DNA from: an uncultured Alphaproteobacteria bacterium
Lineage (GTDB): Bacteria > Pseudomonadota > Alphaproteobacteria > Micropepsales > Micropepsaceae
NCBI GenBank assembly: GCA_903837555.1
Contig: CAILUV010000016.1
Location: forward strand, 1 to 64,000
Length of the DNA: 64,000 nucleotides
Direction: 5' to 3'
Position numbers and translations under genes: made by a program. This document shows, piece by piece, positions 2,115-32,157 of the stretch. The stretch's first letter is position 1; each line of letters opens with the position of its first letter. The notes under the pieces were generated by a model. That model saw only the letters and a list, made by a program, of their open reading frames with translations. It did no database searches and was not told where the DNA came from.

Positions 2115-2531
2115 ATGAAGATCGCGAACGCCGCTTTTGCTTTCGTCTTGCTGAGTTCCGGCGCGGCCATGGCCGACACCAAGGTGCTGGAGCATCACGT
2201 CGCCCAGATGAAGACCGGCAATCTGGAAGCAGTGCTGTCCGATTACGCGCCCAACGCCGTCATCGTCACCCCGCCCGGCGCCATGTCGAAAAGCGGCGTG
2301 TTCATCGGCAAGGATGCGCGCACGCTGTTCGCCATCCTGACCAACAAGGAAAACCTGCCCGGCAACAAGACCATGCAGGTGAGCTATGAGAATCTTGGTC
2401 CCGACACCACGCTGATGCGCTGGGTTCAGTACAAGGGCACGCCCAAGCAGCTCTCCGGCCACGACGTCTTCGTGGTGCGCGGCGGAAAGATCGTGTTCCA
2501 GACGGTGAGCATCGACCCGCCGAAGAAGTAG
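2115..2531 (+). CDS. Exported SnoaL/NTF2-like protein
   Basis: Signal peptide MKIANAAFAFVLLSSGAAMA plus NTF2-like pattern (VLSDYAPNAVIVTPPG...LTNKENL). Confidence 0.7.
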   Translation: MKIANAAFAFVLLSSGAAMADTKVLEHHVAQMKTGNLEAVLSDYAPNAVIVTPPGAMSKSGVFIGKDARTLFAILTNKENLPGNKTMQVSYENLGPDTTLMRWVQYKGTPKQLSGHDVFVVRGGKIVFQTVSIDPPKK

Positions 2532-2595
2532 TCCTGCCGAACCCTCTGTATGGACTTTCTCTGCGGACAGACAGGGGAAAGCTGGAACAGAACGG

Positions 2596-7279: not shown

Positions 7280-8443
7280 ATGACTGAAGAAGTAGTTCGT
7301 CCGGCTGTGCGTCCCGCGCGGCCTTTTTTTTCGTCCGGACCCTGCGCCAAGCGCCCGGGCTGGACCCATGAAGCGCTGAAGGGCGCGCTGGTGGGACGGT
7401 CCCACCGCTCCAAACCCGGCAAAGCCAAGCTTTCGGATGCGATCAACCGCACCAAAAAGCTGCTGAGCCTGCCCGAAGGCTATCGCTGCGGCATCGTCCC
7501 GGCATCGGATACCGGCGCGGTGGAAATGGCGCTGTGGTCGCTTCTGGGTCCGCGCCCGGTTGACCTGTTCGCCTGGGAGAGCTTTTCGGAAGACTGGGTG
7601 ACCGACACGGTCAAGGAGCTGAAAATCAAGGACACACGCGTGTTCAAGGCCGGTTACGGCCAGCTTCCCGACATGACGCAGTACAATCCCGCCCATGACG
7701 CGGTGTTCGTGTGGAACGGCACTACCAGCGGCGTGAAGTTGCCGGATGGCGACTGGATTCCCGACAACCGCGAAGGCCTGACCATCTGCGACGCCACCTC
7801 GGCAGCATTTGCGATGGATCTGCCGTGGGACAGGCTCGATGTCGTGACCTTTTCCTGGCAGAAGGTGCTGGGCGGCGAAGCGGCGCATGGCGTGCTGATG
7901 CTTTCGCCCCGCGCCGTCGCGCGGCTGGAATCCTACACCCCGCCCTGGCCGATGCCGAAAATCTTCCGCATGACCAAAGGCGGCAAGATCGTGGAAGGCA
8001 TTTTCGAAGGCGAGACCATCAACACACCGTCGATGGTGGCGGTGGAAGATTATCTCGACGCGCTGACCTGGGCGGAAGGCGTTGGCGGGCTGAAGGGCCT
8101 GATCCAGCGCTCCAACGCCAACCTCAAGGTGCTGGAAGACTGGGCCGCCAAATCGGACTGGGCCGGTTTCCTGGCGGAAGACAAAGCCATCCGCTCCAAC
8201 ACCAGCGTGTGCATCAAGGTCACCGACCCCTGGTTTGAATCGCTCAGCGACGACGCCAAGGCCGATACCGCCAAGAAGATCGCCACCCTGCTGGACAAGG
8301 AAGGCGTGGCGCTGGACATCGCCGGTTATCGCGCCGCCCCCGCCGGGCTTCGCATCTGGTGCGGCGCCACGGTGGACAAGGAAGACATCGCGGCGCTCAC
8401 GCCATGGCTCGACTGGGCCTGGGCGCAGGTCAAGAAAGCCTAG
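7280..8443 (+). CDS. serC: Phosphoserine aminotransferase
   Basis: 387 aa; [45 protein letters not shown] (PLP lysine region). Confidence 0.95.
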
Positions 8444-11140: not shown

Positions 11141-11286
11141 GGCGGTCTTCCGAGGGTCCGTCGGTACGATGGATACAGGGTGTTTAAGCTAAGGCCGCGC
11201 CCCCGCCAAGATGCCCGGAAGTCGCCGGAATTGCTGAGGCGAGCCCGCCTTTTAACGGGCGCGCAAAAATGCTCTATACCGCCCCC

Positions 11287-13995: not shown

Positions 13996-14616
13996 TTATC
14001 CGAGCATCTGGTCGGTCAGAGCATTCATCCGCTTCGTCAGCCCCGACGCGCCGCCGCTGGCCAGCGTGCCGGCGAAGTCGGAGCGCTTCTGCGCCATCTG
14101 GCTGATATTGCCGGCCAGATAAACGTCGGTGACCTTCCACTCGCCGCCCACCTGGTGGGTGCGGTAGTTGAAAGCGATGCTCTCGCTCTTGGTCTTCATC
14201 ACGCTCTTGACGAACTTGTCGTTGCCGCGCGCGATGGAGGCCGGCTCGACGGTGAATGTCTCGCCGCCATAGGAATCGAAATTCTTGGCGTAGTTGGCGA
14301 CCGTCATGCGCGTGAAGGCTTCGATCAGCGCCTTTTTGTCGGCATCGGACATCGCGGCGAAGCTGGGGCCGATCGCGGTCGCGGTCATGGCCGGAAGGTC
14401 GAAGGCTTTTTCCACCGCCGGGCGCAGTTTGTCGTAGCGGCCCTTGGCGCTGCCGCCCATCTTCATCGACGCAGTCAGCGCATCATAGAAACCGCGCACC
14501 TGGGCGACCGGCGCATCGGCGGCCTGCGCCTGGACGGGTTGAGACGGGATGGTGAGAAGCGCGGGCGCGGCAGCCAGAGTCAGCGCGACGGCGAAAGACT
14601 TCAGAAAACGGCTCAT
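13996..14616 (-). CDS. hpnM: HpnM (MlaC/Ttg2D-like periplasmic protein)
   Basis: Signal peptide; VRGFYDALTASMKMGGSAKGRYDKLRPAVEKAFDLPAMTATAIG; next to hpnN. Confidence 0.9.
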   Translation of the reverse strand: MSRFLKSFAVALTLAAAPALLTIPSQPVQAQAADAPVAQVRGFYDALTASMKMGGSAKGRYDKLRPAVEKAFDLPAMTATAIGPSFAAMSDADKKALIEAFTRMTVANYAKNFDSYGGETFTVEPASIARGNDKFVKSVMKTKSESIAFNYRTHQVGGEWKVTDVYLAGNISQMAQKRSDFAGTLASGGASGLTKRMNALTDQMLG

Positions 14617-15881: not shown

Positions 15882-16805
15882 ATGCGAGTGATCCTTGCCC
15901 AACCACGGGGCTTCTGCGCCGGCGTCGTGCGCGCCATCGATATCGTCGAAAAGGCGCTCGAAAAGTATGGCGAGCCCGTCTATGTGCGCCACGAGATCGT
16001 GCACAACAAGCATGTCGTCAACACGCTCAAGAACAAGGGCGCGCGCTTTGTCGAGGAACTGGACGAGGTTCCCAATGGCGCCGTCACCGTGTTCAGCGCT
16101 CATGGCGTGCCGCAGTCGGTGGTGAAGAACGCACAGGACCGCGGCCTGCCGGTGCTGGACGCGACCTGCCCGCTGGTTTCCAAGGTGCACAATCAGGGCA
16201 AGCGTTACGTCGCCCATGGCCGCACCCTGATCCTGATCGGCCATGCCGGCCATCCTGAAGTGGAAGGCACCATGGGCCAGGTCGGCGCGCCGGTGCACCT
16301 GGTGCAGGAAGAAGAAGACGTCGCCAAGCTGGAGATCCCCACCAACACGCCGGTGGCCTATATCACCCAGACGACGCTTTCGATCGACGACACCAAGGGC
16401 ATCATCGTCGCCCTGAAGAAGCATTTCAGCGACATTGTCGGCCCGGAAACCAGCGACATCTGCTACGCCACCCAGAACCGCCAGACGTCCGTGCGCGAAC
16501 TGGCAAAGCTGGCCGACGTGATCCTGGTGGTGGGCGCGGCCAACAGCTCCAACTCCAACCGGTTGCGCGAGATCGGCATCGAGGAAGGCATCCCCTCCTA
16601 CCTGATCAATGACGGCAGCGAGCTGAAGCCCGAATGGGTCAAAGGCAAGAAGGTGGTCGGCCTGACCGCCGGCGCGTCCGCCCCCGAAGAGCTGGTCCGC
16701 CACGTGATCGAGGTTCTGGGCGAAATCGAAGAAGTTCAGGTCGAAACCATGGACGGCAAGAAGGAACATATCGAGTTCCGCCTGCCCGCCGAGCTGAGAG
16801 CTTAA
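15882..16805 (+). CDS. ispH: 4-hydroxy-3-methylbut-2-enyl diphosphate reductase
   Basis: [49 protein letters not shown]. Confidence 0.98.
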
Positions 16806-16809
16806 GCAG

Positions 16810-17955
16810 ATGGGTCTCCCGATACGTCAGGCCGCCAAGATCGGCGCCTATGTCGTGAAAAAGCAGTTGTCGGGCAAGAAGTACCCGCTGGTGCTGATGC
16901 TGGAACCGCTGTTCCGCTGCAACCTGGCCTGCGCCGGTTGCGGCAAGATCGACTATCCCGATGAAATCCTGAACCAGCGCCTGTCGGTCAAGCAGTGCAT
17001 GGATGCGATCGACGAATGCGGCGCGCCCGCCGTATCGATCGCCGGCGGCGAGCCCCTGCTCCACCGCGACATGCCCAAGATCGTGGAAGGTTACATCGAA
17101 CGCGACAAGTTCGTGATCCTGTGCACCAACGCGCTGCTGCTGAAGAAGAAAATCCACCAGTACAAGCCGCACCCGAATTTCACCTGGTCGATCCACCTGG
17201 ACGGCGACAAGGTGATGCATGACAAGTCGGTGTGCCTGGACGGCACCTATGAAAAGGCGGTGGAAGCCATCAAGCTCAGCAAGTCGCTGGGCTTCCGCAC
17301 CCAGATCAACTGCACACTGTTCGACGGCGCCGATCCGGAACGCACCGCCAAGTTCTTCGACGAAATGATGGAAATGGGCGTGGACGGCATCACCGTCTCG
17401 CCGGGCTATGCCTATGAACGCGCGCCCGACCAGGAGCACTTCCTGAACCGCGAACGCACCAAGAAGATGTTCCGGGACATCCTGTCGCGCGGCAATGGCG
17501 GCAAGAACTGGGACTTCACCAACTCCACCCTGTTCATGGACTTCCTGGCGGGCAACCAGACCTATGAATGCACGCCCTGGTCGATGCCGCTGCTGACCGT
17601 GTTCGGCTGGCAGAAGCCCTGCTACCTCTTGGGCGAAGGCTATGCCAAGACCTTCACCGAGCTGATGGAAGGCACGGAGTGGGAAAAGTACGGCGTCGGC
17701 AAGTATGAAAAGTGCGCCAACTGCATGGTCCATTGCGGCTTCGAAGGCACCGCCGCCACCGATGCGATCAAGCATCCGCTCAAGATGCTGCCGATCCTGA
17801 TGAAGGGCATCCGCACCGAAGGCCCGATGGCCCCGGAAATCTCGCTGGCCAATCAGCGTCCGGCGGAATTCGTCTTTTCGAAGCACGTCGAAAAGAAGAT
17901 GTCAGAGATCAAGGCCGGCAATTCCAACACCACAGAGATCGCGGCAGCGGAGTAA
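16810..17955 (+). CDS. hpnH: Adenosyl-hopene transferase HpnH (radical SAM)
   Basis: PLFRCNLACAGCGKIDYP radical SAM motif; full-length HpnH pattern. Confidence 0.97.
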   Translation: MGLPIRQAAKIGAYVVKKQLSGKKYPLVLMLEPLFRCNLACAGCGKIDYPDEILNQRLSVKQCMDAIDECGAPAVSIAGGEPLLHRDMPKIVEGYIERDKFVILCTNALLLKKKIHQYKPHPNFTWSIHLDGDKVMHDKSVCLDGTYEKAVEAIKLSKSLGFRTQINCTLFDGADPERTAKFFDEMMEMGVDGITVSPGYAYERAPDQEHFLNRERTKKMFRDILSRGNGGKNWDFTNSTLFMDFLAGNQTYECTPWSMPLLTVFGWQKPCYLLGEGYAKTFTELMEGTEWEKYGVGKYEKCANCMVHCGFEGTAATDAIKHPLKMLPILMKGIRTEGPMAPEISLANQRPAEFVFSKHVEKKMSEIKAGNSNTTEIAAAE

Positions 17956-18564
17956 TTCCGCAAACGCCTTGCTGGATCCGCGTGCCGTGCGCACCAGCGC
18001 CGGTATCTGCCCCGGCCTGCGCAGCAGCGATCCCAGAACGCGCCCAATGGCGATCCGACCATCGGGCTTCATCGCCACCAATGCGGCCGGCGGCAGCACA
18101 TGCCCCGCATCGTCCGAAATCACCCGCAAGGCCGCCAGCGGCAGGTTGCGGCTTGCGGCGAAGCGCGCCGCGACCTGGCTTTCCATATCGACCACCAGAG
18201 CGCCGGTGGCATCAAACAGCCCGGTCTTGGTCGCCGCTTCGTGAATAATGATATCGCTGCCGAAAATCGGGCCCTGAACCGCGCCGGGCACGCGCGACAT
18301 CAGCCGCACCCGCCAGGTTTCATGGCAATCCCAACTTTCCGCCCCCGTGATGATGCGGTCGGCGATCACCACGTCACCGACTTTAAGATGCGGCGACAGT
18401 CCGCCGCCCAGCCCGATGGAAATCACGCCGCGAATGTCGCCATGCAGGGCATCGAGCTTCTGCGCCAGCAGCTCGCCATTGCCGCCGCCCGCCACCGCCA
18501 CCACGCCGGATGTGCCGACGATCTCGGCCTCTTTCACCAGGCCAGTGACTGCGATAACCGTCAC
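17902..18564 (-). CDS. hpnG: HpnG, hopanoid-associated nucleoside phosphorylase-like protein
   Basis: GLGGGLSPHLKVGDVVIAD, VDMESQVAARFA; next to shc. Confidence 0.92.
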   Translation of the reverse strand: MTVIAVTGLVKEAEIVGTSGVVAVAGGGNGELLAQKLDALHGDIRGVISIGLGGGLSPHLKVGDVVIADRIITGAESWDCHETWRVRLMSRVPGAVQGPIFGSDIIIHEAATKTGLFDATGALVVDMESQVAARFAASRNLPLAALRVISDDAGHVLPPAALVAMKPDGRIAIGRVLGSLLRRPGQIPALVRTARGSSKAFAELLRCRDLCGVGIAGLDL

Positions 18565-18574
18565 TTTGTTTTCC

Positions 18575-20503
18575 TCACAGGCCGTATTCCACGCGGCGCG
18601 AATTGCTGCTTTTGAGATTGCGGTAGCGCGCCAGCGCCCAGAGCGGGAAGAATTTCGGATAGCCGTGATAGTTCAGATAGAAGACGCGCGGGAAACCGCC
18701 GCCGGTATAGTGCGCCTGGGTCCACAAGCCATCAGCCTGCTGCGTCGCCTTCAGGTAATTGACGCCGCGCGCTACCGCGGGGTGATCCACCTGCCCCGCC
18801 GCCATCAGGCCCAGCAGCGCCCAGGCGGTCTGTGACGCGGTGGAGGGCGCAGGCTCATAGCCACGATAATCCAGCTTGTAGCTGTCGCAATTCTCGCCCC
18901 AGCCGCCATCGGGATTCTGGATCGTCACGAGCCAGTCGGCGCCCTTTTTCATGGTGGGATGATCGGGCGCGAGGCCCGCGCCATTCAGGCCCGCCAGCGC
19001 AGACCAGGTGCCGTAGATGTAATTGACGCCCCAGCGACCCCACCAGCTTCCGTCCGCGCACTGCTTCTGGATCAAATAGTCGATGCCGGCCTTGAGCCTG
19101 GGATCATCGGGCTTAGCGCCAAGCTGCGCCAGCATGCCGACGCAGCGCCCCGACACGTCTTCGGTCGGCGGGTCCAGAAACGCGCCGTGATCGGCGAAGG
19201 GAATGTTGTTGAGGTAATAGTAGCTGTTGTCGGCATCGAACGCGCCCCAGCCCCCATCGCGGCTTTGCAGGCCCTCGACCCATTCGGCGCCGCGCGCGAT
19301 GCCGTCCTTGTGCTGCTCGCGCTCGCGCGAACGGTCCATCGCCATCACCACCACGGCGGTGTCGTCCAGATCGGGATAGTGATCGTTGCGGTACTGGAAA
19401 GCCCAGCCGCCTGGGCGCACATCGGGCTTTTCCTCGGCCCAGTCGCCCTTCACATCCAGCACCTGCAGCGGTTTGAGCCAGTCCAGGCCCCGGGTCACCG
19501 CGTCTTGCGCCTTGGAATCCTTGGTTTCCAGCAAGGCGTGGGCGACGAGCGCGGTGTCCCACACCGGCGAGACGCAAGGCTGGCAATAGGCCTCGTCCTC
19601 CTTGATCACCAGCAGTTTTTCGACCGAAAGGCGCGCGATGGCGCGGTGCGGGTGATCCTCCGGATAGCCCAGCAGGTCGTACATCATCACGCTATTGGCC
19701 ATGGCGGGATAGATTGCGCCCAGCCCGTCTTCGCCATTGAGCCGCTCGGTGGTCCAGACCCGGCATTTTTCGATGGCGCGGTCACGCAGCCCCTTGGGCC
19801 AGGGCACGATCTTCAGCACCTTGTCGAGCTGATGAAAGAAGAAAGACCAGCCCGCGCTCTGGTGTGGTGCGCGCGGCGAAGCTGCGCCCACGCCATCCAC
19901 GAACAGTTCGCCGATATGGATGCCGCGCGGATTGCGCGCGACCGGCTGGCGGGCGCACAGCACCAGCAGCGGCACGATCACGGTGCGGGCCCAATAGCTC
20001 ATCTTGGACAGATGCACCGGGAACCAGCGCGGCAGCAGGATCAATTCGACCGGCACGGTCGGCACATTCTGCCATGAGGTCTCGCCATACAGCGCGAGAA
20101 GAATGCGGGTGAAGACATTGGCCTTGATGGCGCCGCCGCGTTCCCGGACCGCCTCGCGGGCACGCACCATGTGCGGCGCGTTGATGTCGTCGCCGATCAT
20201 CTTGAGGGCGAAATAGGCTTTCACGGTCGCCGAAATGTCGAACGCGCCCTCGTGATAGAGCGGCCAGCCGCCATGGGCGCCCTGAATGCGGCGCAGATAT
20301 GCGCCGATCTTCTTTTCCAGCTCCAGGTTCGGCGTTTCGGCGAGGTAATGCACCAGGAGCACGTATTCCGCCGGTATGGTGGCATCGGCTTCCAGCTCAT
20401 AGACCCAGTGCCCGTCCGGCTTCTGCTGGGACAGGATGGCATCGGTGGCGGCGCGGATCGCGCCGTCCACGTCGGTGAATGCTGCCGGGTTGATCTGGTT
20501 CAT
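18575..20503 (-). CDS. shc: Squalene-hopene cyclase
   Basis: Catalytic DxDD motif DLDDTAVV and multiple QW repeats (QNPDGGWGE, QADGLWTQ, QSRDGGWGAFD). Confidence 0.98.
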   Translation of the reverse strand: MNQINPAAFTDVDGAIRAATDAILSQQKPDGHWVYELEADATIPAEYVLLVHYLAETPNLELEKKIGAYLRRIQGAHGGWPLYHEGAFDISATVKAYFALKMIGDDINAPHMVRAREAVRERGGAIKANVFTRILLALYGETSWQNVPTVPVELILLPRWFPVHLSKMSYWARTVIVPLLVLCARQPVARNPRGIHIGELFVDGVGAASPRAPHQSAGWSFFFHQLDKVLKIVPWPKGLRDRAIEKCRVWTTERLNGEDGLGAIYPAMANSVMMYDLLGYPEDHPHRAIARLSVEKLLVIKEDEAYCQPCVSPVWDTALVAHALLETKDSKAQDAVTRGLDWLKPLQVLDVKGDWAEEKPDVRPGGWAFQYRNDHYPDLDDTAVVVMAMDRSREREQHKDGIARGAEWVEGLQSRDGGWGAFDADNSYYYLNNIPFADHGAFLDPPTEDVSGRCVGMLAQLGAKPDDPRLKAGIDYLIQKQCADGSWWGRWGVNYIYGTWSALAGLNGAGLAPDHPTMKKGADWLVTIQNPDGGWGENCDSYKLDYRGYEPAPSTASQTAWALLGLMAAGQVDHPAVARGVNYLKATQQADGLWTQAHYTGGGFPRVFYLNYHGYPKFFPLWALARYRNLKSSNSRRVEYGL

Positions 20504-20510
20504 GGCGGAA

Positions 20511-21782
20511 TTATAGGCCCAGGTGAGCTTGCGCCAAAGCGGCGGCAGTCGCGCCAGACCGGACCGCGCCTTCGATGGTGGCGGGCAAGCCGGTCTGGAT
20601 CCAGTCGCCGGCCAGAAACAGGTTGCGCCAGCCTGTCTGGGCGCCGGGGCGGCGGGCGTCCTGCTGCGGCGTGGCGGCGAAAGTGGCGCGTTTTTCCTTG
20701 ACGATCTGCCAGGCCGGCATCGGCGCGGTGATGTCCAGCGCCCTGGCGACATCGGCCCAGATGCGCGTGGCCAGCGTTTCGCGGTCCTGGTCGACGATGG
20801 CATCGGCCCCCGACACCGTGACCGAGATGCGGTCCTCGAAACCGAAAATCCATTCGGCGGTGCCGCCGATCACGCCCAGCATGCCGGGCGCGCCATTGGC
20901 CTGCAGGAACGAAGCCGGCGCGGGCATTTTGAAATGCGCGTTGACGATGGCGCGGAAATCATCGGGCACGGTCAGGCCGGGGATCAGGTCGGCCGCCGCC
21001 CAGGGCGGCACCGCCAAAATCACCACATCGCGCGGCCCCACCGGCAGGGTGGCGTCGGCAATATCCAGCGTCATGGCTTCGCGCGGCCCCAGCGTAAGAC
21101 CACGCAGCCGGGTGCCCAGCCGCACCGCGCCGTTACGCTGTTCCAGATATTTCACCGCCGGATCGATAAAGGCCGCCGCCAGCGTGGGATGGGCGATGCG
21201 CGGGCGATAATGGCTGCCGCCTCTGGCCAGCGTCTCGCGCAGCAGCGCGCCTGACAGTTTGGCGGAGGATTCTTCGGGCGCCGTGTTCAGCGCCGCCAGC
21301 AGGAAGGGGCGCATCAGGCGCTGCCAGAGCAGCCCGCGTTCTTTCACGACGGCATCGACGCGCGTCTGCGCGCCGGCCCACATCAGGGGCGCGTACTGGA
21401 AATAGTCGGTGGTGTGGGTGCCGGGCACCCGGCGGCTGCGCGACGCCACCCAATAGGGGAGCGGGCCTTCATTGGGCCGCAAGGTCCAGCGCCCACCATT
21501 GCCAAAATCGACAAAGGAAAATTCCGCGTGCGGCGGGCCCACCAGCGCATCCTTCGCGCCGATGCGTTCCAGATAGGCGGCAACCGCATGATTGCCCGAC
21601 AGCACCAGATGATTGCCATTGTCGATCACCCCGCCCATGGCGGCGTCAAAATAGGAGCGGCACCGGCCACCCGCCTGGCCTGCGCCTTCGATCACATCGA
21701 CCGCAATGCCGCGCGAGGCCAGATGCGTGGCCGCCGACAAGCCAGCCAGCCCGCCACCGACGATGTAAGCTTTGCCTGTCAC
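20511..21782 (-). CDS. hpnE: HpnE, squalene-forming FAD-dependent desaturase
   Basis: AYIVGGGLAGLSAATHLASRGIAVDVIEGAGQAGGRC; operon context. Confidence 0.96.
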   Translation of the reverse strand: MTGKAYIVGGGLAGLSAATHLASRGIAVDVIEGAGQAGGRCRSYFDAAMGGVIDNGNHLVLSGNHAVAAYLERIGAKDALVGPPHAEFSFVDFGNGGRWTLRPNEGPLPYWVASRSRRVPGTHTTDYFQYAPLMWAGAQTRVDAVVKERGLLWQRLMRPFLLAALNTAPEESSAKLSGALLRETLARGGSHYRPRIAHPTLAAAFIDPAVKYLEQRNGAVRLGTRLRGLTLGPREAMTLDIADATLPVGPRDVVILAVPPWAAADLIPGLTVPDDFRAIVNAHFKMPAPASFLQANGAPGMLGVIGGTAEWIFGFEDRISVTVSGADAIVDQDRETLATRIWADVARALDITAPMPAWQIVKEKRATFAATPQQDARRPGAQTGWRNLFLAGDWIQTGLPATIEGAVRSGATAAALAQAHLGL

Positions 21783-22633
21783 GAAAACAGTCCTTGCCGC
21801 AGCACCAGCGACAGCAGGCGGGTCTTGGGCAGCGAGACGCGGCGGCGCGGCGCGGCAAAGCCCTGGGCTTCGCTGGCCGCCAGAATTTCGGAATAGACCG
21901 CGCCCATCAGGCGCGGGGTCTTGATGCGGCCCCTGGGGCGCGCCGCCAGGATGCGCTGCGCCTCGTCATAATGGTGGTGCGCCAGCTTGGCGACGCGGCG
22001 GCAGACGCCGTCGATGCAGGGGCTGGCGACGATGGCCTTGGGGTCCAGCGCGGTGATGCCCGCTTCCTGAAGATATTCGCGCGGCAGGTACAGGCGCCCG
22101 ATGGCGGCGTCTTCATCGATGTCGCGCAGGATATTGGTGAGCTGCAGCGCCCGGCCCAGATGATGGGCGAGATCGAAACCCGGCCCCTCGTCCATGCCGA
22201 ACACCTTGATCGACAGGCGGCCCACCGCGCTGGCAACCCGGTCGCAATACAGGTCAAGCGTGGCCAGATCAGGCGCAACAATGTCTTCGGCCACGTCCAT
22301 GTCCATGCCGTCCAGCACGGCTATGAAATCTTCCAGCCGCAAGCCATAGGCCGTGACGTGCGGTGCCAGAAACGCCACGCGCGGCGGTTTGCCCCCCGCA
22401 TAAAGCCCGGCCAGATCGGCACGCCACTGTTCCAGCTTTTCATGGCGTTCGGGGCGGGTGCCCACGCCGTCATCGGCAATGTCGTCCACCTTGCGGCAGA
22501 AGGCATAGATGGCGAACATGGCGTCGCGCTCTTCGCGCGGCATCAATCGCATCGCCAGGTAAAAGGAACTGCCAGCGGCTTTTTTCTGGACGGCGGCGGC
22601 AGCGGCGCCACCAATATTCTCGGCGTTGGTCAT
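21779..22633 (-). CDS. hpnD: Presqualene diphosphate synthase HpnD
   Basis: YAFCRKVDDIADD, LTNILRDIDEDAAIGRLYLP. Confidence 0.95.
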   Translation of the reverse strand: MTNAENIGGAAAAAVQKKAAGSSFYLAMRLMPREERDAMFAIYAFCRKVDDIADDGVGTRPERHEKLEQWRADLAGLYAGGKPPRVAFLAPHVTAYGLRLEDFIAVLDGMDMDVAEDIVAPDLATLDLYCDRVASAVGRLSIKVFGMDEGPGFDLAHHLGRALQLTNILRDIDEDAAIGRLYLPREYLQEAGITALDPKAIVASPCIDGVCRRVAKLAHHHYDEAQRILAARPRGRIKTPRLMGAVYSEILAASEAQGFAAPRRRVSLPKTRLLSLVLRQGLFS

Positions 22634-23481
22634 CGCGAAGATCCCAGGCGCATCAGGGCGAAAGCAGGCAGGCGTTTGAGAAACAGCGCCGCAACGCGCG
22701 GCTTGGAATGGTGGACGACATCACACAGCGGATCGCGGGTCATCAGCATGGTGTTGATATCGTCGGCCAGTGTCTGGATGAGATCGACTTCCAGCGCAAG
22801 CCTTGTGTCCTTGATGCCCCGCGCGAAGGGCCGGGCGGCCTCCAGCAGCGCAGCATTGCGGCGGGTCAGGCCAGCAATCACGCCCCTCAGGGCTGGGCTG
22901 GATTTGCTGCCGGCCAGCGCCGCGACGGTGACGCCGGCTTCGGTCAAAAGCGGCTCCGGAATATAGACGCGGTTCAACTGGCGGTAATCCTTGCCGCAGT
23001 CCTGCAGATGATTGTTGATCTGCAGCGCCGCGCACAGCGCGTCATTGGCAGGCCACAGGCTTTGGGATTCGCCATGCACATCCAGCACGAAGCGCCCCAC
23101 TGGCATGGCGCTGTAGCGGCAGTAATCGATCAGCTCGTCCCAATCGCGATACCGCAGCTTGGTGCAGTCGCGGCTGAAGGCTTCCAGAAGATCGAGCGCA
23201 TGCACCGGGGAAAGTCCCCGTTCGGCCAAGCTGGCGCGCAGCGCCACACCCACGGCAACGGCATCGCTTTCGCCGGTCAGGCTGGCGCGCATCTTTTCCA
23301 GCAGCGCCAGCTTTTCGTCAGCGGAGGTGGTTTCATGGTCCGATACATCATCAGCCGCGCGCACAAAGCGATAGAACGCCATCACCGGGGCGCGGTATTG
23401 GGGCGCGATCAGGACCGAGGCGACGGGGAAGTTCTCGTCCTTGTGGCCCTTGCCCGATTGAAGGTCAGCGATATCGCTCAT
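22630..23481 (-). CDS. hpnC: Hydroxysqualene synthase HpnC
   Basis: ENFPVASVLI, FYRFVRAADDVSDH, INNHLQDCGKDYRQLNRVYIP; start codon at 23481. Confidence 0.95.
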   Translation of the reverse strand: MSDIADLQSGKGHKDENFPVASVLIAPQYRAPVMAFYRFVRAADDVSDHETTSADEKLALLEKMRASLTGESDAVAVGVALRASLAERGLSPVHALDLLEAFSRDCTKLRYRDWDELIDYCRYSAMPVGRFVLDVHGESQSLWPANDALCAALQINNHLQDCGKDYRQLNRVYIPEPLLTEAGVTVAALAGSKSSPALRGVIAGLTRRNAALLEAARPFARGIKDTRLALEVDLIQTLADDINTMLMTRDPLCDVVHHSKPRVAALFLKRLPAFALMRLGSSR

Positions 23482-24626
23482 GCCTTCTCGCCTCCCCCGG
23501 CATTGGCCTGCGCGCGGCCTTTCCACATGCCGCCCTTGCCCGACCAGTATTGTATCGCCGATTCCAGGGTGAAGGCGGCATAGAATGCGCCGATCAACGG
23601 CAGCGCCAGGCCCCACAAGGGCGACTGGCGGTAGAAGCGCAGGATGGGCTGGAACATGATCGCCATGATCGCCCAGGCAGCCCAACCGGCGAGCTGGGAG
23701 ACGCCCCAGGCAAACAGCGCCGTCATCACCGGCGCGATATAGACCAGGAACAGGCCCAGCAGCGTACCCGCCAGCAGCAGCGGCGAATAATTGAGCTGCG
23801 CATAGGCGGAGCGCGACACCATCTGGCGGATATCGGCCAGATGCTCGTAAGGGCGAAGCGACAGCGCGCGGTCGGTCAGGCCCAGCCAGATCGGGCCCTG
23901 GCGTTTCATGGCGCGGCCCAAGGCGCAATCGTCGATGATGTTGTGGCGGATGGCGGCAATGCCGCCCGCAGCATCCAGCGCAGTGCGCCGCGTCAGCATG
24001 CAGCCGCCCGCCGCCGCGGCGACCTTGGACTTGGGATCGTTGACCGCGCCGAAGGGAAACAGCATGTCGAAGAAAAAGACGAAGGCGGGGATCAGGAAAT
24101 GCTCGGCCGCCGTCTTGCAGGACAGCCGCGCCATCAGCGACACCAGCACCTTGTCGCCGTCTTGCGCGCGCGCCACCAGATGGCGCAGATTCTCGGGTGT
24201 ATGGGCAATATCGGCGTCGGTGAACCAGACAAATTCGGGGGCGCGCTTGGACGCCAGCTCGCTGCCCTGGTGCATCGCCCACAATTTTCCGGTCCACCCC
24301 TGCGGGCGTTCCGCGCCAGTCAGAACCGTCAGGCGCGCCGAATTCAGCGCCGTGGCGAGATAGGCGGTGCCGTCATCGGACTGGTCGTCCACCAGCACGA
24401 TATGGAAATCGCCGGGATAATCCTGGGCGACCAGGCTGCCGATGCTGCGCTGGATCACGTCGGCTTCGTTGCGGGCCGGCACCACCGCCACCACCGACGG
24501 CCAGCGTTCGGGCATCTGCACCGCCAGCGTGTCGCGCTCGCGCAACCGCCAGAAGCCGTGATGGAACAGCAGCAGGTAAAGCCACACCGCGAGCGGCAGG
24601 AAACCGAACAGGATACCGGCGATCAT
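23478..24626 (-). CDS. hpnB: HpnB glycosyltransferase
   Basis: GT2-type VAVVPARNEADVIQRSIGSLVAQDYPG...LVDDQSDDGT; operon position. Confidence 0.93.
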   Translation of the reverse strand: MIAGILFGFLPLAVWLYLLLFHHGFWRLRERDTLAVQMPERWPSVVAVVPARNEADVIQRSIGSLVAQDYPGDFHIVLVDDQSDDGTAYLATALNSARLTVLTGAERPQGWTGKLWAMHQGSELASKRAPEFVWFTDADIAHTPENLRHLVARAQDGDKVLVSLMARLSCKTAAEHFLIPAFVFFFDMLFPFGAVNDPKSKVAAAAGGCMLTRRTALDAAGGIAAIRHNIIDDCALGRAMKRQGPIWLGLTDRALSLRPYEHLADIRQMVSRSAYAQLNYSPLLLAGTLLGLFLVYIAPVMTALFAWGVSQLAGWAAWAIMAIMFQPILRFYRQSPLWGLALPLIGAFYAAFTLESAIQYWSGKGGMWKGRAQANAGGGEKA

Positions 24627-25612
24627 TTCAGGTATCCGTTGGCGGCGAACCAGCCCAACGCATCCTTCAGGCCCTCGCGGTACGGGCGGGCGGTATAGCC
24701 CAGTTCGCGTTTGGCTTTTTCAGAGCTGAAGAACATGCGATAGCGCGACATGCGCAAGGCATCGGCGGTGAGGAACGGCTCCTTGCCGGTCAGGCGGGCG
24801 ATGAATTCCGCGCCCCAGGCCAGCGGAAACAGCGGCGCGCGCGGCAGCTTTATGGTCGGCGCCTTGCGGCTGGTCAGCGCGGCGATATCGGCCAGCATCA
24901 CTTCCAGCGACACATCCTCGCCGCCCAGGATGTAATTCTCGCCGACCTTGCCCTTGTCCAGCGCCAGCAGGTGGCCCTGTGCCACGTCATCGACATGCAC
25001 CAGATTGAGTCCGGTATCGACGAAGGCCGGAATGCGCCCGGTTGCGGCTTCGACGATGATGCGGCCTGTCGGCGTAGGCTTGATGTCGCGCGGGCCGATC
25101 GGAGTCGATGGTGCCACGATCACAGCGGGCAGCTTTTCACTGTTAATCAGGCGCTCGACTTCGCGTTCGGCCACCAGCTTGCTGCGCTTGTAGGCGCCGA
25201 CGACGCCTTCTGCGGTGTTGCGCGAAGTTTCATCGACCGCCGTTTCCCCCGGCTTCAGTGCAGCCACCGACGAAGTGTAGACAACTTTTTCGACACCGCA
25301 TTTCAGCGCCGCGCCCATCGAGGCCTGCGCGCCCAGAAGGTTGTTGCGCTCGATCTCGCCCGGATCGCGCGCCCACAGCCGGTAATCGGCCGCGACATGG
25401 AAGAAATAGCGCGCGCCCTTCATGGCTGCCGTCATCGCGGCTTCGTCGCGCATGTCGCCGATCACCGGCTCGCACGCCGTGCCGGCGATATTGTCGCGCG
25501 AAGCGCTGGCCCGCATCAGAACCCGCACATGCAGTCCGCGCGCCACCAGCGCCCGCGCCACGGCGGAACCGACAAAGCCCGATGCCCCGGTGACCAGCGC
25601 GACATCAGACAT
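24623..25612 (-). CDS. hpnA: HpnA hopanoid-associated sugar epimerase
   Basis: VTGASGFVGSAVARALVARGLHVRVLMR; NAD-dependent epimerase. Confidence 0.93.
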   Translation of the reverse strand: MSDVALVTGASGFVGSAVARALVARGLHVRVLMRASASRDNIAGTACEPVIGDMRDEAAMTAAMKGARYFFHVAADYRLWARDPGEIERNNLLGAQASMGAALKCGVEKVVYTSSVAALKPGETAVDETSRNTAEGVVGAYKRSKLVAEREVERLINSEKLPAVIVAPSTPIGPRDIKPTPTGRIIVEAATGRIPAFVDTGLNLVHVDDVAQGHLLALDKGKVGENYILGGEDVSLEVMLADIAALTSRKAPTIKLPRAPLFPLAWGAEFIARLTGKEPFLTADALRMSRYRMFFSSEKAKRELGYTARPYREGLKDALGWFAANGYLK

Positions 25613-26648
25613 TGCGATCGTCCCCCGGCCGTTCGCTCAAGCTCGCGGCGCTCGCCGTCTGCGCGGGTCCATTGGACCTACTTGGCGCTTCGCGCCACAC
25701 GGCTCGCCCTTCATAAGCCTGCCAGTAGAGAAGCGCCGGAACGCCCAGCACAATCTCGCGCGCCCGTTTCAGCAGCGACACCGCAAGACCCATTTCCGCC
25801 GGCAGGCCGAACAGCGGGGCCAGCATGGCATAGCCCCATTCCTGCACGCCGATGGCAGCGGGCACCGGCGTGGCGATGCTGCGCAGGGCGCACAGCAGAG
25901 CCTCCAGCGCGATGGCGTCAAGAAGACTGATGTCGCCGCCGATCAACTGAAATGAGAGGAACGTGCCGCCACCCGCACCGATCCAGGCAAGCAGATGCCA
26001 GCCCGTGGACGCCGCCAACCGCGAGGGCGAACTGTAAAGGTCCAGGATCGCCTGGTGGAAAGATACGCCCTGCTGCATCTGGGGAAAGAACCGCCGGGCG
26101 AGGCGTTCCGCAAAACCCGCACCACGCTTTTGCAGGAAGATCAGCAGCGCGATGCCGGGCACCGCCAGCAGCAGCATGGCGACCATGGTCACGGTCAGAG
26201 GGCCGGTGCCTTCGATATTGCGGAAATGGGTCAGGCCCATGCCAAGACCGAAGGCCAGGAACACCACCTGCGCCATGGCTTCGGTGGTCGCATCGGCCGC
26301 CACCGAACCGGCGGCATAGGCGGGCGTCATGCGCTTGAGGATCATCAACCGCGCCGCCGCCACCATGCCGCCCACCGGCGAGAATGGCGAAATCTCGGCG
26401 ATGGAATCGCGCACCAGACGGGCGATGTAGAAATTCCACAGGCTGCTGCGCTCGGACGGCGGCATCAGGAAATACCAGGCGAACGCCAGCGTGATGAAAA
26501 TGACCGCTGAATACAGGCACAGCAGCGCCAGGCCATCGAAACCTGCGCGCGATACCGCATCGAAGACCGGATCAAAGCCGATCGACCAGACCAGATAGAT
26601 GGCGGCGATCACGCCCGCCAGCAGCGCCAGGACGACTCCCCACTTCAT
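25605..26648 (-). CDS. hpnL: HpnL-like / lysylphosphatidylglycerol synthase TM-region protein
   Basis: Polytopic protein, GGMVAAARLMILKRM...PVPAAIGVQEWGYAML; hopanoid context. Confidence 0.85.
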   Translation of the reverse strand: MKWGVVLALLAGVIAAIYLVWSIGFDPVFDAVSRAGFDGLALLCLYSAVIFITLAFAWYFLMPPSERSSLWNFYIARLVRDSIAEISPFSPVGGMVAAARLMILKRMTPAYAAGSVAADATTEAMAQVVFLAFGLGMGLTHFRNIEGTGPLTVTMVAMLLLAVPGIALLIFLQKRGAGFAERLARRFFPQMQQGVSFHQAILDLYSSPSRLAASTGWHLLAWIGAGGGTFLSFQLIGGDISLLDAIALEALLCALRSIATPVPAAIGVQEWGYAMLAPLFGLPAEMGLAVSLLKRAREIVLGVPALLYWQAYEGRAVWREAPSRSNGPAQTASAASLSERPGDDRNV

Positions 26649-27496
26649 CAGGCAGGCAGCGGCTTGGCGCGGAAGCTCCACAGGCGCATGGCGCCCAGCG
26701 CGGTTTCCGCCAGTTGCGGCAGGAAGCTGGGGCGCAGCAATTCCGGTTCGAAGGCGCCCATGCGGCGGCGGTTTTCCGAATAGCAGTCTTCCAGGAAGCG
26801 GCGGAAGGTAAAGCCGTCCAGGAACACGCTGGCCTGAGTGGCGGAGAACTCCTTTCCGTCGTTCATCTCGGCGCCGCGTTTGGCGGTGCCGATCATGCGG
26901 CCCAGCGCGCGCATGTAATAGCGGAAATCGGTGAGCGGCAGCATCGCGCGCGCCACAAACCCCTTCTGCGCCTGGTTGTACGCCATCCAGTTGACGAAGA
27001 AGACGATGTGACGGGTTTCCTCGTACATCAGGGTTTCGAAGATGGCGAACATCTCCTTGGGCAGGAACTGCGACTGCATGGCGATCTTGAAGACGCCAAA
27101 GCCCAGGAAGGAATCCATGCACTCGCCAAAGCCGAAATCCTTGAAACGGGTTTCGATATTGTCGCTGACATCCTCCAGCGGGCGTTCGGCGGCGTCGATG
27201 CCGTACCTCTCGATCATCACCCGGATCAGCTTGGCATGGCGGGCTTCCTCGAAACCCTGTAGCGCCACCGCTTCCTTCATCACCGGATCTTTGATGGTCT
27301 TGACGAATTCGGCGACGATCGCGCCGGCGCGGCGCTCGGTATAGAAGACTTCTTCCCAGAAGGGCACGGATTTCAGGCGCTTCAGCGCCTCTTCGTCCAG
27401 GTCCGGCCAGGGCAGCGTATCGGGATCGAACTCCGTATAGGTCTGCATGAAGTGGCGACAGAAGGTGTCGCGATGTTCGGGCGATCCGATTTTCAT
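26648..27496 (-). CDS. Ferritin-like (putative diiron) protein, paralogue 1, function unknown
   Basis: Two ExxRH-type motifs GFEEARHAK and YEETRHIVFF spaced on helices; stop overlaps the hpnL-like start (ATGA). Confidence 0.75.
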   Translation of the reverse strand: MKIGSPEHRDTFCRHFMQTYTEFDPDTLPWPDLDEEALKRLKSVPFWEEVFYTERRAGAIVAEFVKTIKDPVMKEAVALQGFEEARHAKLIRVMIERYGIDAAERPLEDVSDNIETRFKDFGFGECMDSFLGFGVFKIAMQSQFLPKEMFAIFETLMYEETRHIVFFVNWMAYNQAQKGFVARAMLPLTDFRYYMRALGRMIGTAKRGAEMNDGKEFSATQASVFLDGFTFRRFLEDCYSENRRRMGAFEPELLRPSFLPQLAETALGAMRLWSFRAKPLPA

Positions 27497-27497
27497 T

Positions 27498-28403
27498 CTA
27501 AGCAGCCTTCTTCTTCGGACCGATGAACTTCAGCGCCAGACGCGCCATGAAAGGCACGAAACGCGGCCGCTTGAGGCGCGCGTCATAAGGCGCCAGGCGG
27601 CGGTCATTCTCCGCCAGGCACACGGCCACCAGCTCGCCGACATTGATGTCGGAGCCCAGCGCTTCAGCGCCGTTGACGGTGAAGTTGGCGTCCTGTTCGC
27701 CATGGCCGACATCCTTGGCGATGCCGATGCGCTCATAGATTAGGAAGATCCAGACCGCGAGCACCTTGAGTTCGAAATACGGGCGGCGCCACGCCGGCAT
27801 GTTGCGGCGATGCCAGGCAATCCAGTTGACGAAGAACAGGATGTGGCGAGCTTCCTCGTTCACCACCGGATCGAAGGTCTGCACCAGTTCGGGCGGGAAA
27901 TAGCCGGTGTCCTTGGCGGCCTTGAACAGGCCAAACGCAAAGAAGCTGTCGATGCATTCGCTGTAGCCGGTGACCATGAAGGCCCATTCGGGGTCTTTCG
28001 GCCGTGCCGGCACCGGTTCGGGCGCCAGCTTGACGCCATAGGCTTCCACCAGATTGGCCAGCACATGACGGTGGCGACGTTCCTCAAAGCCGTTCAGCTC
28101 GATCGCCTTGCGCAGCAGCGGGTCGGGCACGCCTTCGGCATAGGTGCAGACATTCATGCCCGCCTTGTTTTCGGTCTGCACCGCGATGTCCCAGATGGGC
28201 AGCGAGGTGATGCGCCTTTCGGCTTCTGCTTCCAGCTTGGGCCAGTCCAGCACCGCCGGCTTGTAGGGATCGTGGGTGTCCAGCAGCGTCTTGCAGAACA
28301 GGCGCTTGTGCGCGTCCGAACCGAAACGGATCGGGCCGCCATCCGGCCACACGCCGGTGTCGCGGGTCAGGTCGGGGGGAATGGCAAAGGCCGGGCTGCT
28401 CAT
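27498..28403 (-). CDS. Ferritin-like (putative diiron) protein, paralogue 2, function unknown
   Basis: GFEERRHRHV and NEEARHILFF motifs; shares FGLFK and FFVNWIAW/FFVNWMAY with paralogue 1; start taken at MSSPAFAIPP (28403). Confidence 0.75.
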   Translation of the reverse strand: MSSPAFAIPPDLTRDTGVWPDGGPIRFGSDAHKRLFCKTLLDTHDPYKPAVLDWPKLEAEAERRITSLPIWDIAVQTENKAGMNVCTYAEGVPDPLLRKAIELNGFEERRHRHVLANLVEAYGVKLAPEPVPARPKDPEWAFMVTGYSECIDSFFAFGLFKAAKDTGYFPPELVQTFDPVVNEEARHILFFVNWIAWHRRNMPAWRRPYFELKVLAVWIFLIYERIGIAKDVGHGEQDANFTVNGAEALGSDINVGELVAVCLAENDRRLAPYDARLKRPRFVPFMARLALKFIGPKKKAA

Positions 28404-28505: not shown

Positions 28506-29345
28506 CTAGGAAGAAAAGTCCGTAAAACCACCGATGCGGACTCCTTGGGCGGCCAGGAGTCCAGGCAGGCTGGGATCGGTCAGGGCCGCCAGTTCCGCTT
28601 CATACTGATAGCCCGGCGCCGAGCCCGGATAAGGCCCCGTGGCGGGGTGCATGTAAATCTCTGTCAGCCCGCCCGGAAGCTGCTGGAGCAGCCCCTTCAG
28701 GCGTTCCTTGGTCATGGCCCCGGACCAGGCCAGGCCGAACACGGAATCGGGCGCGGCGATTCCGGCGCGGCGAAAACGGGCCCGCAACATCCTGGCAAAA
28801 GGCGCTGTCAGCGCCACGACGCCCGACGCCTTGTGGTTCTCGATCCGGCCCAGCACGTCCTGCGGCTCCAGCGGCACGCGCGCGGCTTTCACCCGGTGAC
28901 GGCGCGCCGCCTTGACGATCGCGCCCGCGATGGTGGGATGCAGGTGAAAATGCTTGTGCGCGTTGACGTGATCCAGCCGCAGGCCCGTGGCGTCGAATGC
29001 CGCGAACTGCGCTTCGATCTCGGCGGCGAGCTGGCGGCGCACCTTGGGCAAAAAGAACATCGCCGCGCCGGCCCGCGCCATGTCGGTGCGAAAATGCCCG
29101 CTGGCATCGACAAGATCGGGCACAGCCGCCACCGGCAAAACTGGACGGCCCTCGACCAGCACCAGATGCAGGCCAACACGCAAGGACGGCAGATTGCGGG
29201 CGCGGGTTACGGCGTCACCGGCGGCATTGCCCGCCACCATCAGACTGGCGGCGGACAGGATGCCGTCGCGATGGGCGCGCTCGACGGCTTCGTTGACCGC
29301 GATGGCGGCACCGAAGTCATCCGCCGTGACGATCAGGCGCTTCAA
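28506..29345 (-). CDS. hpnK: HpnK, YdjC/ChbG-family deacetylase
   Basis: LIVTADDFGAAIAVNEAVERAHRDG...HVNAHKHFHLHPTI; probable TTG start at 29345. Confidence 0.92.
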   Translation of the reverse strand: MKRLIVTADDFGAAIAVNEAVERAHRDGILSAASLMVAGNAAGDAVTRARNLPSLRVGLHLVLVEGRPVLPVAAVPDLVDASGHFRTDMARAGAAMFFLPKVRRQLAAEIEAQFAAFDATGLRLDHVNAHKHFHLHPTIAGAIVKAARRHRVKAARVPLEPQDVLGRIENHKASGVVALTAPFARMLRARFRRAGIAAPDSVFGLAWSGAMTKERLKGLLQQLPGGLTEIYMHPATGPYPGSAPGYQYEAELAALTDPSLPGLLAAQGVRIGGFTDFSS

Positions 29346-29349
29346 CGGA

Positions 29350-30783
29350 TCAGGCGGCGTGCTGCTTGCGGTCCTTGAGGAAGTGGAAGAACTCCACACC
29401 CTCCCGCAGGCGACGCTTCATCATGTCGGGCTGCGTGACCATTTCCTTGACGATCGAGCCGATCTTGCCCGGACGGAAATAGAACTGCCGGTAGAAGGTC
29501 TCCAGCGAGTCGAAGATTTCCTTGTGCGACAGATGCGGGTAGTGCAGCGGCGCGATCTGGATGCCGTTGTCGTCGATCAGCTCGGCATTGGCGGCGTCGA
29601 GCCAGCCATTCTGCAAGGCCTGATTGTAGAGGAAGGTGCCGGGATAGGGCGCCGCCAGCGATATCTGCACGGTGTGCGGATTGATGCGCTTGGCGAATTC
29701 GCGCGTCTCGCGCATGGTTTCCAGCGTTTCGCCCGGCAGGCCCAGAATGAAGGTGCCGTGAATCTGGATGCCCAGCGTGTGGCAGTCACGGGTGAACTTC
29801 TCGGCAACCTCGATGCGCATGCCCTTCTTGATGTTGTGCAGGATTTGCTGGTTGCCGGATTCATAGCCGACCAGCAGCAGGCGCAGGCCGCCTTCGTTGA
29901 GCTTCTTGAGCGATTCATACGGCACGTTCGCCTTGGCGTTGCACGACCACTGGATGCCCAGCTTGCCCAGCTCCTTGGCTATGGCTTCGGCGCGCGGCAG
30001 GTCGTCGGTGAAGGTGTCGTCGTCGAAGAAGAATTCCTTGGTCTGCGGAAACGCCTTCATCGCCCATTTGATCTCTTCGATCACGTGACCGACGCTGCGG
30101 GTGCGATAATTGTGACCGCCCACGGTCTGCGGCCACAGGCAGAAGGTGCAGCGCGATTTGCAGCCGCGGCCGGTATAGATCGAGATGTAGGGGTGCTTGA
30201 GATAGCCGATGAAATACTTTTCCATCACCAGGTCGCGCTTGTAGACCGGGGTGACGAAGGGCAGCGAATCCATATTCTCGATGATCGGACGGTCGTCGTT
30301 ATGGGTGATGACGCCATGCTTGTTGCGCCAGGAAATGCCCTTGATGCCGGCCCAGTCCTGGCCGTCGGCAACGTCCTTGATGGTGAAATCGAATTCGTTG
30401 CGGGCGACGAAGTCGATCGCCGCGCCTTCGCGAAGCGAACCTTCGGCGTTCACCGCAACCTTGGCGCCGATGAAGCCGGCCTTGAGGTTCGGGTTGGCGG
30501 CCTTCATCGCCTCGATGACTTTGACGTCCGATTTGAAGGACGGCACCGAGGTGTGCGCCACCACCAGGTCGAAATCCTTCGCCTGGGCGACGACTTCGGC
30601 CAGGGTGGTGTCATGCGGCGGGGCGTCGATCAGCTTGGAGTTTTCCACCAGCGCGGCGGGCTGCGCCAGCCAGGTCGGATACCAGAAGCTCTTGATCTCG
30701 CGCTTAGCCTGGTAGCGCGAACCGGCGCCGCCATCGAAACCGTCAAAGGACGGGGCCTGCAGGAAAAGGGTCTTCATCGACAT
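29350..30783 (-). CDS. hpnJ: HpnJ, B12-binding radical SAM protein
   Basis: MKTLFLQAPSFDGFDGGAGSRYQ, radical SAM GRGCKSRCTFCLWP. Confidence 0.96.
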   Translation of the reverse strand: MSMKTLFLQAPSFDGFDGGAGSRYQAKREIKSFWYPTWLAQPAALVENSKLIDAPPHDTTLAEVVAQAKDFDLVVAHTSVPSFKSDVKVIEAMKAANPNLKAGFIGAKVAVNAEGSLREGAAIDFVARNEFDFTIKDVADGQDWAGIKGISWRNKHGVITHNDDRPIIENMDSLPFVTPVYKRDLVMEKYFIGYLKHPYISIYTGRGCKSRCTFCLWPQTVGGHNYRTRSVGHVIEEIKWAMKAFPQTKEFFFDDDTFTDDLPRAEAIAKELGKLGIQWSCNAKANVPYESLKKLNEGGLRLLLVGYESGNQQILHNIKKGMRIEVAEKFTRDCHTLGIQIHGTFILGLPGETLETMRETREFAKRINPHTVQISLAAPYPGTFLYNQALQNGWLDAANAELIDDNGIQIAPLHYPHLSHKEIFDSLETFYRQFYFRPGKIGSIVKEMVTQPDMMKRRLREGVEFFHFLKDRKQHAA

Positions 30784-30811
30784 GGTCAAAACCTCGGGAA
30801 CCTAAGAACCG

Positions 30812-31963
30812 TCAACCGGAAGATATTGCGCCGCAGCGCTGTACCGTAAAGTGGCTTCCGCGCCAATGCACTGTTTCGCCGAACAGCGAGGCCAGGAATA
30901 CGGCAAAACTCAGCAAATCGCGCGCCGGCAGCAGCCAGAAAGGCCCGGCATTGGTGCCGAAAAGCCCGTCAATCCGCCATTTCAGGGCCAGCCGGGCGGC
31001 CAGCACCAGCGCCAAGACCGCCAGGGCGCCGGGGGTGAAACCCAGCAAAACCGCGCCCATCAGGGCAAACGGCAGACCATGGGTGACGATGCTGCCGACA
31101 TGACCGGCCGGATTGACCAGCCGGATGGTGCGGGTCCAGCGCAGTTCGTGCCGCACCAGGTCCCAAAGGCTGTTTTCAGCCGCGGTGTGTCCCACGCCCA
31201 GCGCCGGAATCGCCAGTTCATAGCCGCGGTCCCGAACGGCGCGCCCGATCTCGTAATCATCGGCCAGCAGGTCGGCGAAAGCGTTGAATCCGCCGATCTC
31301 CTCCAGCGTCTGGCGCCTGAGCGCGATGGTCGAACCGAAACAGGGCGCGGCCAGACCCAGGCTGAAACCGAGAATCGCATTGGGCAGGAAACCGTAGGAG
31401 GTGCCCATCGCCGCCAGCCCGGACCACAGCCGGTTCGTGCCCTGCGCCGGTTGGCCCGTGTAGAAACAGGTCACCACGCCCACCTTGGGGCGATGCAGCG
31501 CTTCGACCACCTGCGCCAGCCATCCCTGCTTAACCGCGATATCGCTGTCGGACAGCACCAGCACATCATGCCGGGCGGCCCCAAGCATGTTGATCAGGTT
31601 GGAAACCTTGGCGTTGGCGCCGTGATAGGCGGCATCGGCGACGATGACGCTGTCGGTTTGCGGATATTTCGCCTGCAAGGCGCGCACAATGGATAATGCG
31701 GGATCACCCGCGTCATGCGCGCCGAAAACGATCTGCACCGCGCCGGGATAGGCGTGGTTGAAAACCGTTTCCAGGTTGCGCGCCAGATCCGGCTCGTCCT
31801 GGTGCAGCGGCTTGAGAATGGTGACGGCGGGATGATGCGTCGGCGCGGGTGCCGCGCGGTGCATAAAGCGCTGCGCCAGCAGAGCGGACAACAAGGCATA
31901 GCCCGCGCCAATCATTGCGATGGCGCAAAACGTCCAGCCCAGAATGGTAAAAGCCAGCACCAT
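30812..31963 (-). CDS. hpnI: HpnI glycosyltransferase (GT2)
   Basis: VTILKPLHQDEPDLARNLETVF, VLVLSDSDIAV, DDYEIGRAVRDRGY; GTG at 31969 is an alternative start. Confidence 0.93.
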   Translation of the reverse strand: MVLAFTILGWTFCAIAMIGAGYALLSALLAQRFMHRAAPAPTHHPAVTILKPLHQDEPDLARNLETVFNHAYPGAVQIVFGAHDAGDPALSIVRALQAKYPQTDSVIVADAAYHGANAKVSNLINMLGAARHDVLVLSDSDIAVKQGWLAQVVEALHRPKVGVVTCFYTGQPAQGTNRLWSGLAAMGTSYGFLPNAILGFSLGLAAPCFGSTIALRRQTLEEIGGFNAFADLLADDYEIGRAVRDRGYELAIPALGVGHTAAENSLWDLVRHELRWTRTIRLVNPAGHVGSIVTHGLPFALMGAVLLGFTPGALAVLALVLAARLALKWRIDGLFGTNAGPFWLLPARDLLSFAVFLASLFGETVHWRGSHFTVQRCGAISSG

Positions 31964-32157
31964 GCTCACGCGAACCGCCCCCCGGCGACGCACACTTGAT
32001 AAATGATCCCCCACCAGAGCGGGAGCGACTTTGCGTGACCGATTGCGACACCCCGAAATTCCGGGCTAGTCCTTTGATAAGTATGCCAAATTACTGACAA
32101 ACAATCAATGTTGACGGGTGTATGGGAAGCCCCGCGGTCTCGCGATAGGCTTGCGAC

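Follow-up and report, generated by a model that had tools for sequence, protein, structure and literature searches.

Two tandem genes in the hopanoid operon of an uncultured alphaproteobacterium of the Micropepsaceae encode members of a protein family, here called F, that is found almost only in genomes with a squalene-hopene cyclase, and whose link is to hopanoids generally and not to hpnIJK. We consider it likely that the two putative enzymes, F1 and F2, are hopanoid-directed di-metal (diiron) proteins; as a candidate for the exact reaction we propose, with a little less than even odds, an O2-dependent hydroxylation of the hopanoid side chain that would make bacteriohopanepentol and bacteriohopanehexol. 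The best explanation of the whole, to which we give a probability of roughly 0.4, is a hopanoid-tailoring family in which F2 would be the core hydroxylase and F1 an accessory partner.

The window, a stretch of 64,000 nucleotides from contig CAILUV010000016.1, holds a complete hopanoid region in which hpnI-J-K-F2-F1-L-A-B-C-D-E-shc-G are co-directional on the minus strand, from 32014 down to 17902. Upstream of the pair lie hpnI (30812–32014), the radical SAM gene hpnJ (29350–30789) and hpnK (28506–29399); these are followed by F2 (27498–28403; 301 aa) and F1 (26648–27496; 282 aa), and then by hpnL (25605–26648; 253 bits to NCBIfam TIGR03476), hpnA (24623–25612), hpnB (23478–24626), an hpnC-like gene (22630–23480), an hpnD-like gene (21779–22633), hpnE (20511–21782), the squalene-hopene cyclase gene shc (18575–20503; 765 bits to TIGR01507) and hpnG (17902–18564). 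HpnL, HpnK, HpnJ, HpnI, HpnA, HpnB, HpnE and HpnG all score above their NCBIfam cut-offs, and the description of the flanking genes as bona fide hpn genes in an earlier note on this DNA is therefore sound. The hpnC-like gene is placed by operon position and tblastn synteny with relatives (its open reading frame, 22630–24297, extends further upstream, and the reference corresponds to its C-terminal part), and the hpnD-like gene by the list of reading frames and tblastn synteny. Beyond hpnG are an hpnH-like radical SAM gene on the plus strand, divergent from the operon (16810–17955), and ispH-like (15882–16805, plus), hpnM-like (13996–14616, minus) and hpnN-like (11269–13890, plus) genes; these four are identified by sequence reading and synteny. 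The two tandem paralogous frames reported between hpnL and hpnK are both present and intact on the minus strand, separated from each other by one base. The ATGA overlap claimed at 26648 has to be corrected: the F1/hpnL junction is TGATG, with the F1 stop codon TGA at 26650–26648 and the hpnL ATG at 26648–26646, and the genes thus overlap by a single base.

F1 and F2 are paralogs, being 32% identical over 267 residues in an ungapped alignment (E = 7e-58). The ExxRH-type motifs that had been read in them are correct, and each protein carries besides a complete series of di-metal ligands in the order E / ExxH / E / ExxH, which in F2 numbering are E78, E108xxH111, E149 and E184xxH187. The set is invariant in an alignment of 101 relatives with the single exception of one H111, so that its conservation goes far beyond chance; Y122, G146, C150, S153, F154, R110, R186, N193 and R269 are also invariant in this alignment. 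Neither protein has a match above cut-offs in Pfam, NCBIfam, PHROGs or PDB sequences, and assignment to a known family at the sequence level was dropped. The subthreshold matches are mostly to di-iron ferritin-like proteins, among them the Pfam families Ferritin_2 (19.2 bits, gathering cut-off 24.7), Rubrerythrin (12.6, cut-off 22.8) and AurF (13.3, cut-off 29.6) and the aerobic Mg-protoporphyrin cyclase (PRK13654), all of them weak and partial and below curated cut-offs. The sole di-iron enzyme returned by the PDB sequence search is a MiaE-like tRNA hydroxylase (5ux1), a ferritin-like di-iron hydroxylase, but the similarity is not significant (E = 0.6) and the substrate of MiaE is tRNA. The named Hpn proteins share their operon and their hopanoid-producing hosts with F1 and F2, but none of the NCBIfam Hpn models matches either protein.

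The AlphaFold model of F2, built from 48 sequences, is a confident helical bundle (pLDDT 85.8, pTM 0.87), and the ligands fall on its helices 71–90, 95–121, 138–166 and 171–201. A Foldseek search of the PDB with this model returns R2lox, the ribonucleotide reductase (RNR) R2 subunit and aldehyde-deformylating oxygenase, mostly with a probability of 1.00, TM scores of about 0.5 and E values of 5e-3 or weaker, and the sensible matches in a viral fold library are likewise RNR-R2/ferritin-like. Both hallmarks of the ferritin-like di-metal carboxylate superfamily are found, the four-helix bundle in the F2 model and in the listed PDB matches of the same fold, and the E / ExxH / E / ExxH ligands spread over four helices in the 101 homologs. 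The conserved ligands, the model and the structural matches together support the ferritin-like four-helix di-metal architecture that the earlier note had read from motifs, and the structure prediction, judged by ligand placement on the helices, favours a di-metal fold. We infer that F2 and F1 are ferritin-like di-iron (or Mn/Fe) enzymes with a putative metal centre.

The nearest structural relatives, R2lox and RNR R2, are helical bundles of a length similar to that of F2 (about 285 aa) and head the Foldseek matches (probability 1.00, TM 0.5), but they are only 12–18% identical to it, their E value is only 5e-3, and their genomic context is entirely different. R2lox has the same ligand order as F1 and F2 and binds a long-chain lipid ligand; it is further characterized by a Tyr-Val ether cross-link and a Mn/Fe cofactor. 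A relationship to R2lox may be reflected in the fold of the F2 model, where the match is weak (TM 0.5, E = 5e-3), and PDB sequences gave no match to R2lox for F1 or F2. The fold is known, and the family is so far unnamed. Neither the libraries nor the open-access literature (subscription literature lay mostly outside the search) yielded a description of the family, its hopanoid link, the pairing of F2 with F1 or their fusions.

The association with hopanoid genes is apparent both in gene neighbourhoods and in the distribution of the family. A scan of 84,980 species genomes gave at least 572 relatives, of which the best 80 were examined; in 74 of these 80 there are hpn genes no more than 10 kb away, and each of the 74 has an hpn gene or F1 on the same strand within 400 bp. 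The upstream neighbour among these best 80 of at least 572 is hpnK in 49, hpnL in 12 and hpnJ in seven. The closest homologs are in Alpha- and Gammaproteobacteria, including Sphingomonas, Caulobacterales, Dyella, Rhodanobacter and Nevskia; most of the more distant members are not clustered with hpn genes, yet still lie in hopanoid genomes. Among 241 alphaproteobacteria, F is present in 17 and the cyclase in 65, and all 17 F-containing genomes have the cyclase; when the genus of the window itself is set aside, all 13 F-containing genomes, from nine families, are cyclase-positive (hypergeometric p = 8e-9, a value that ignores phylogeny). Three of 185 gammaproteobacteria contain F, all cyclase-positive (25 genomes exceed the cyclase cut-off), as do three of 121 Sphingomonadales, again all cyclase-positive (14 overall); in each of these two samples one of the F-containing genomes is the chosen centre of the sample. 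Among the genomes behind the selected loci, 17 of 18 are cyclase-positive, the exception being a metagenome-assembled genome (MAG). The survey of relatives that the earlier note had called for thus turns up a genomic association with hopanoid genes, the absence of which would have counted against the note's reading.

This association does not run through the HpnI-K-J cyclitol-ether route. HpnJ is encoded by 19 of the 241 alphaproteobacteria, nine with F and ten without it, and eight F-containing genomes lack HpnJ; among the cyclase-positive genomes, F and HpnJ are not significantly associated (five shared, Fisher p = 0.28), and we have therefore rejected this route as the main link. In Cupriavidus metallidurans CH34, F2 precedes hpnB; the same stretch has hpnA-ispH-hpnH-hpnN close by and contains no hpnIJK. 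In genome G123, which has no hpnJ, F1 adjoins hpnN and F2 adjoins hpnA, the two genes lying at opposite ends (loci L157 and L158) of a large hpn cluster without hpnIJK; should the organism make hexol, its genome would lend itself to a test.

F1 and F2 form separate clades in trees. F2, the widely distributed clade, is often solitary. F1-type genes have been found accompanied by F2, joined to it in a fusion, or paired with another ferritin-like protein, X; genome G018 shows F1 alone, and the gene sits at the edge of its 3.3-kb contig. The fusions, in five MAGs of two subclades, are single proteins of 580–581 aa in which the N-terminal half is F2 and the C-terminal half belongs to the F1 clade, and hpnL follows them. 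An origin of these fusions by frameshift or misassembly was rejected, as the same open gene of 580–581 codons is present in five genomes and two subclades. In seven Methylococcales genomes the F1-type gene has X just upstream, and of the 111 genomes of this order the seven with X are precisely the seven with F (p = 3e-11). X, which is ferritin-like/AurF-like, recalls F2 in its tandem arrangement with an F1-type protein, but it is of another subfamily (20 bits to AurF, 14 bits to DUF455) and not close to F2. As F1-type proteins are seen with F2, fused to F2, or with X, F1 would seem to require a partner. The suggestion of a heterodimer is in this form strengthened by the five fusions and by the second ferritin-like protein elsewhere, and a complex of F2 and F1 is plausible on this comparative evidence. 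In an AlphaFold model of a fusion both halves fold, but with a pTM of only 0.51 the domain arrangement and interface are not interpretable.

Several loci have neighbourhoods of their own. In most of the Methylococcales flanks read (L204, L205, L207 and L198), genes for SCO1-like and PCu(A)C copper chaperones follow the F1-type gene. In genome G165 (L159) the genes beside a tandem F1-F2 pair (SCO1, DUF1775, DUF2946 and PCu(A)C) make up a neighbourhood for copper handling, and the 9.9-kb contig has no hpn genes. In Burkholderia cenocepacia (L155) and at one further locus (L106), roughly 1 kb separates a solitary F2 from a very large open reading frame downstream of it (2742 and 2654 aa, respectively) whose start resembles trimeric autotransporter adhesins, with no hpn genes within 10 kb.

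R2lox and aldehyde-deformylating oxygenase bind lipid-like ligands, and the chemistry of the fold, together with the restriction of the family to hopanoid producers, points to an O2-activating enzyme acting on hopanoids. In the scheme that we propose, each protein would bind a di-metal centre that activates O2 with electrons from some redox partner, and the extended side chain would be hydroxylated at an unactivated CH2 adjoining the tetrol, first at C-31 and then at C-30, giving bacteriohopanepentol, bacteriohopanehexol and their cyclitol ethers. F2 would be the core enzyme, and F1 an accessory partner, bound to it in a complex or, in the fusions, part of the same chain; F1 would either modulate F2 or carry out the second hydroxylation. 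A strict division of labour, in which F2 would form the pentol by hydroxylation at C-31 and the hexol would arise through C-30 hydroxylation by the F2-F1 complex or fusion, both O2-dependent, is a specific version that we regard as doubtful.

The genes for pentol and hexol formation are stated in a survey of November 2025 as not known, with no candidate near hpn clusters (PMC12583986), and the genes for ring double bonds are likewise said there to be unknown. F2 and F1 might instead be ring desaturases, introducing a delta-6 or delta-11 double bond by the same di-metal chemistry, although we think this rather unlikely. Genotype and phenotype can be matched in two species only, both F-containing and with no F-negative species for comparison. 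In Sphingomonas formosensis CC-Nfb-2 the one F gene found is an F2 within the hpn operon (L057), and the strain makes 23% pentol and only 1% unsaturated hopanoids, while the other Sphingomonadales of the survey have 0% unsaturated hopanoids (PMC12583986). Burkholderia cenocepacia, of which one strain carries F2, makes bacteriohopanepentol cyclitol ether and also unsaturated, delta-6 forms (PMC8560942; the strain differs from that of the F2 genotype); because the species makes both, its genotype alone cannot separate a hydroxylase from a desaturase. Methylocaldum szegediense, here known by phenotype alone, makes a delta-11 unsaturated aminopentol (PMC6460317), as a desaturase would allow, but membrane candidates of the FAH/sterol-desaturase type have already been proposed for unsaturation (PMC6460317, PMC12583986). 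The two matched species taken together favour hydroxylation over desaturation. Against a hydroxylase we count that only seven of 111 genomes of the Methylococcales, the classic aminopentol producers (PMC11844350, PMC6460317), contain F (a single pmoA-bearing gammaproteobacterial genome with F was found, and it belongs to this order), so that hydroxylation at C-30 and C-31 must also be possible without F. We also count against it that F is present in only three of 14 cyclase-positive Sphingomonadales, whereas six of eight cultured hopanoid-polyol producers of this order make pentol (PMC12583986). The occurrence of F therefore fits pentol and hexol production in the two matched species and misfits the frequencies in the two orders. 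Bacteriohopanepentol cyclitol ether is present in a Rhodopila strain that was cultured without oxygen as well as in air (PMC8590665, which leaves unstated how the cells for LC-MS were grown); if this pentol was made anoxically, an O2-independent route would be needed. An alternative route to pentol and hexol through an oxo intermediate and hydration has been proposed (PMC12583986), and both points also count against the hydroxylase. The survey, which phenotyped 54 strains, reports no pentol from Hyphomicrobiales and gives pentol plus hexol as 90% in Sphingomonas mali, 77% in Enhydrobacter aerosaccus and 51% in S. haloaromaticamans (PMC12583986). F cannot be the sole route to pentol.

Some other uncatalogued hopanoid oxidation is an unlikely explanation; it might convert a side-chain hydroxyl into the 32-oxo form, or act on the amino-sugar or cyclitol head group that HpnI-K-J make. 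Such an oxidation would suit the position of F2, which where it has hpn neighbours mostly comes directly after hpnK (49 of 80) or hpnJ (seven of 80), a 32-oxo glycoside reported from Zymomonas (PMC12583986), and the NodS-like methyltransferase gene that two congeners carry at this position, which gives the locus the look of a gathering place for tailoring genes. It sits poorly with the eight of 17 F-containing alphaproteobacteria that lack HpnJ and the ten genomes with HpnJ but no F, with loci at which F adjoins hpnB/hpnA or hpnN and hpnIJK are missing from the vicinity, and with the description of the HpnIKJ cyclitol-ether route as complete without F (PMC12583986). Improbable, in our judgement, is an absence of hopanoid catalysis altogether, with F as a metal-storage, detoxification or redox-sensing ferritin-like protein merely co-transcribed with hopanoid genes. 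Rubrerythrin, Ferritin_2 and encapsulin ferritin-like models are among the best subthreshold similarities, and genes for the copper chaperones SCO1 and PCu(A)C are found close to F in Methylococcales and one alphaproteobacterial genome; but passive co-transcription would hardly give a near-exclusive co-occurrence with squalene-hopene cyclase across families and classes, even outside the hpn cluster and with hpn neighbours that differ between lineages, and a bundle of about 300 aa is nearer to R2lox, R2 and aldehyde-deformylating oxygenase than to the small ferritins.

The methyltransferase gene of the two congeners lies in the hpnK-F2-hpnL stretch, at 7471–8232 (plus strand) in locus L034 and between F2 and F1 at about 2341–3140 in locus L020, and in one case it replaces F1. 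Its product is a SAM methyltransferase whose top NCBIfam match is NodS, at 50.8 bits and well below the cut-off of 300. NodS N-methylates deacetylated glucosamine, and by analogy the head group that HpnI/K/J produce, with its amino sugar or cyclitol, could be what the NodS-like protein methylates; a methylated cyclitol ether without an assigned gene has been reported (PMC12583986).

Hopanoids, which are sterol-like membrane lipids, rank with the most widely used molecular fossils, and a conserved di-metal family in hpn clusters provides a concrete gene candidate for hopanoid modifications without known genes. If F is O2-dependent, its products would inform on oxygen in the rock record, and should F2 and F1 indeed hydroxylate the side chain with O2, the pentol and hexol of these lineages would be biomarkers that depend on molecular oxygen and can be traced to a gene.
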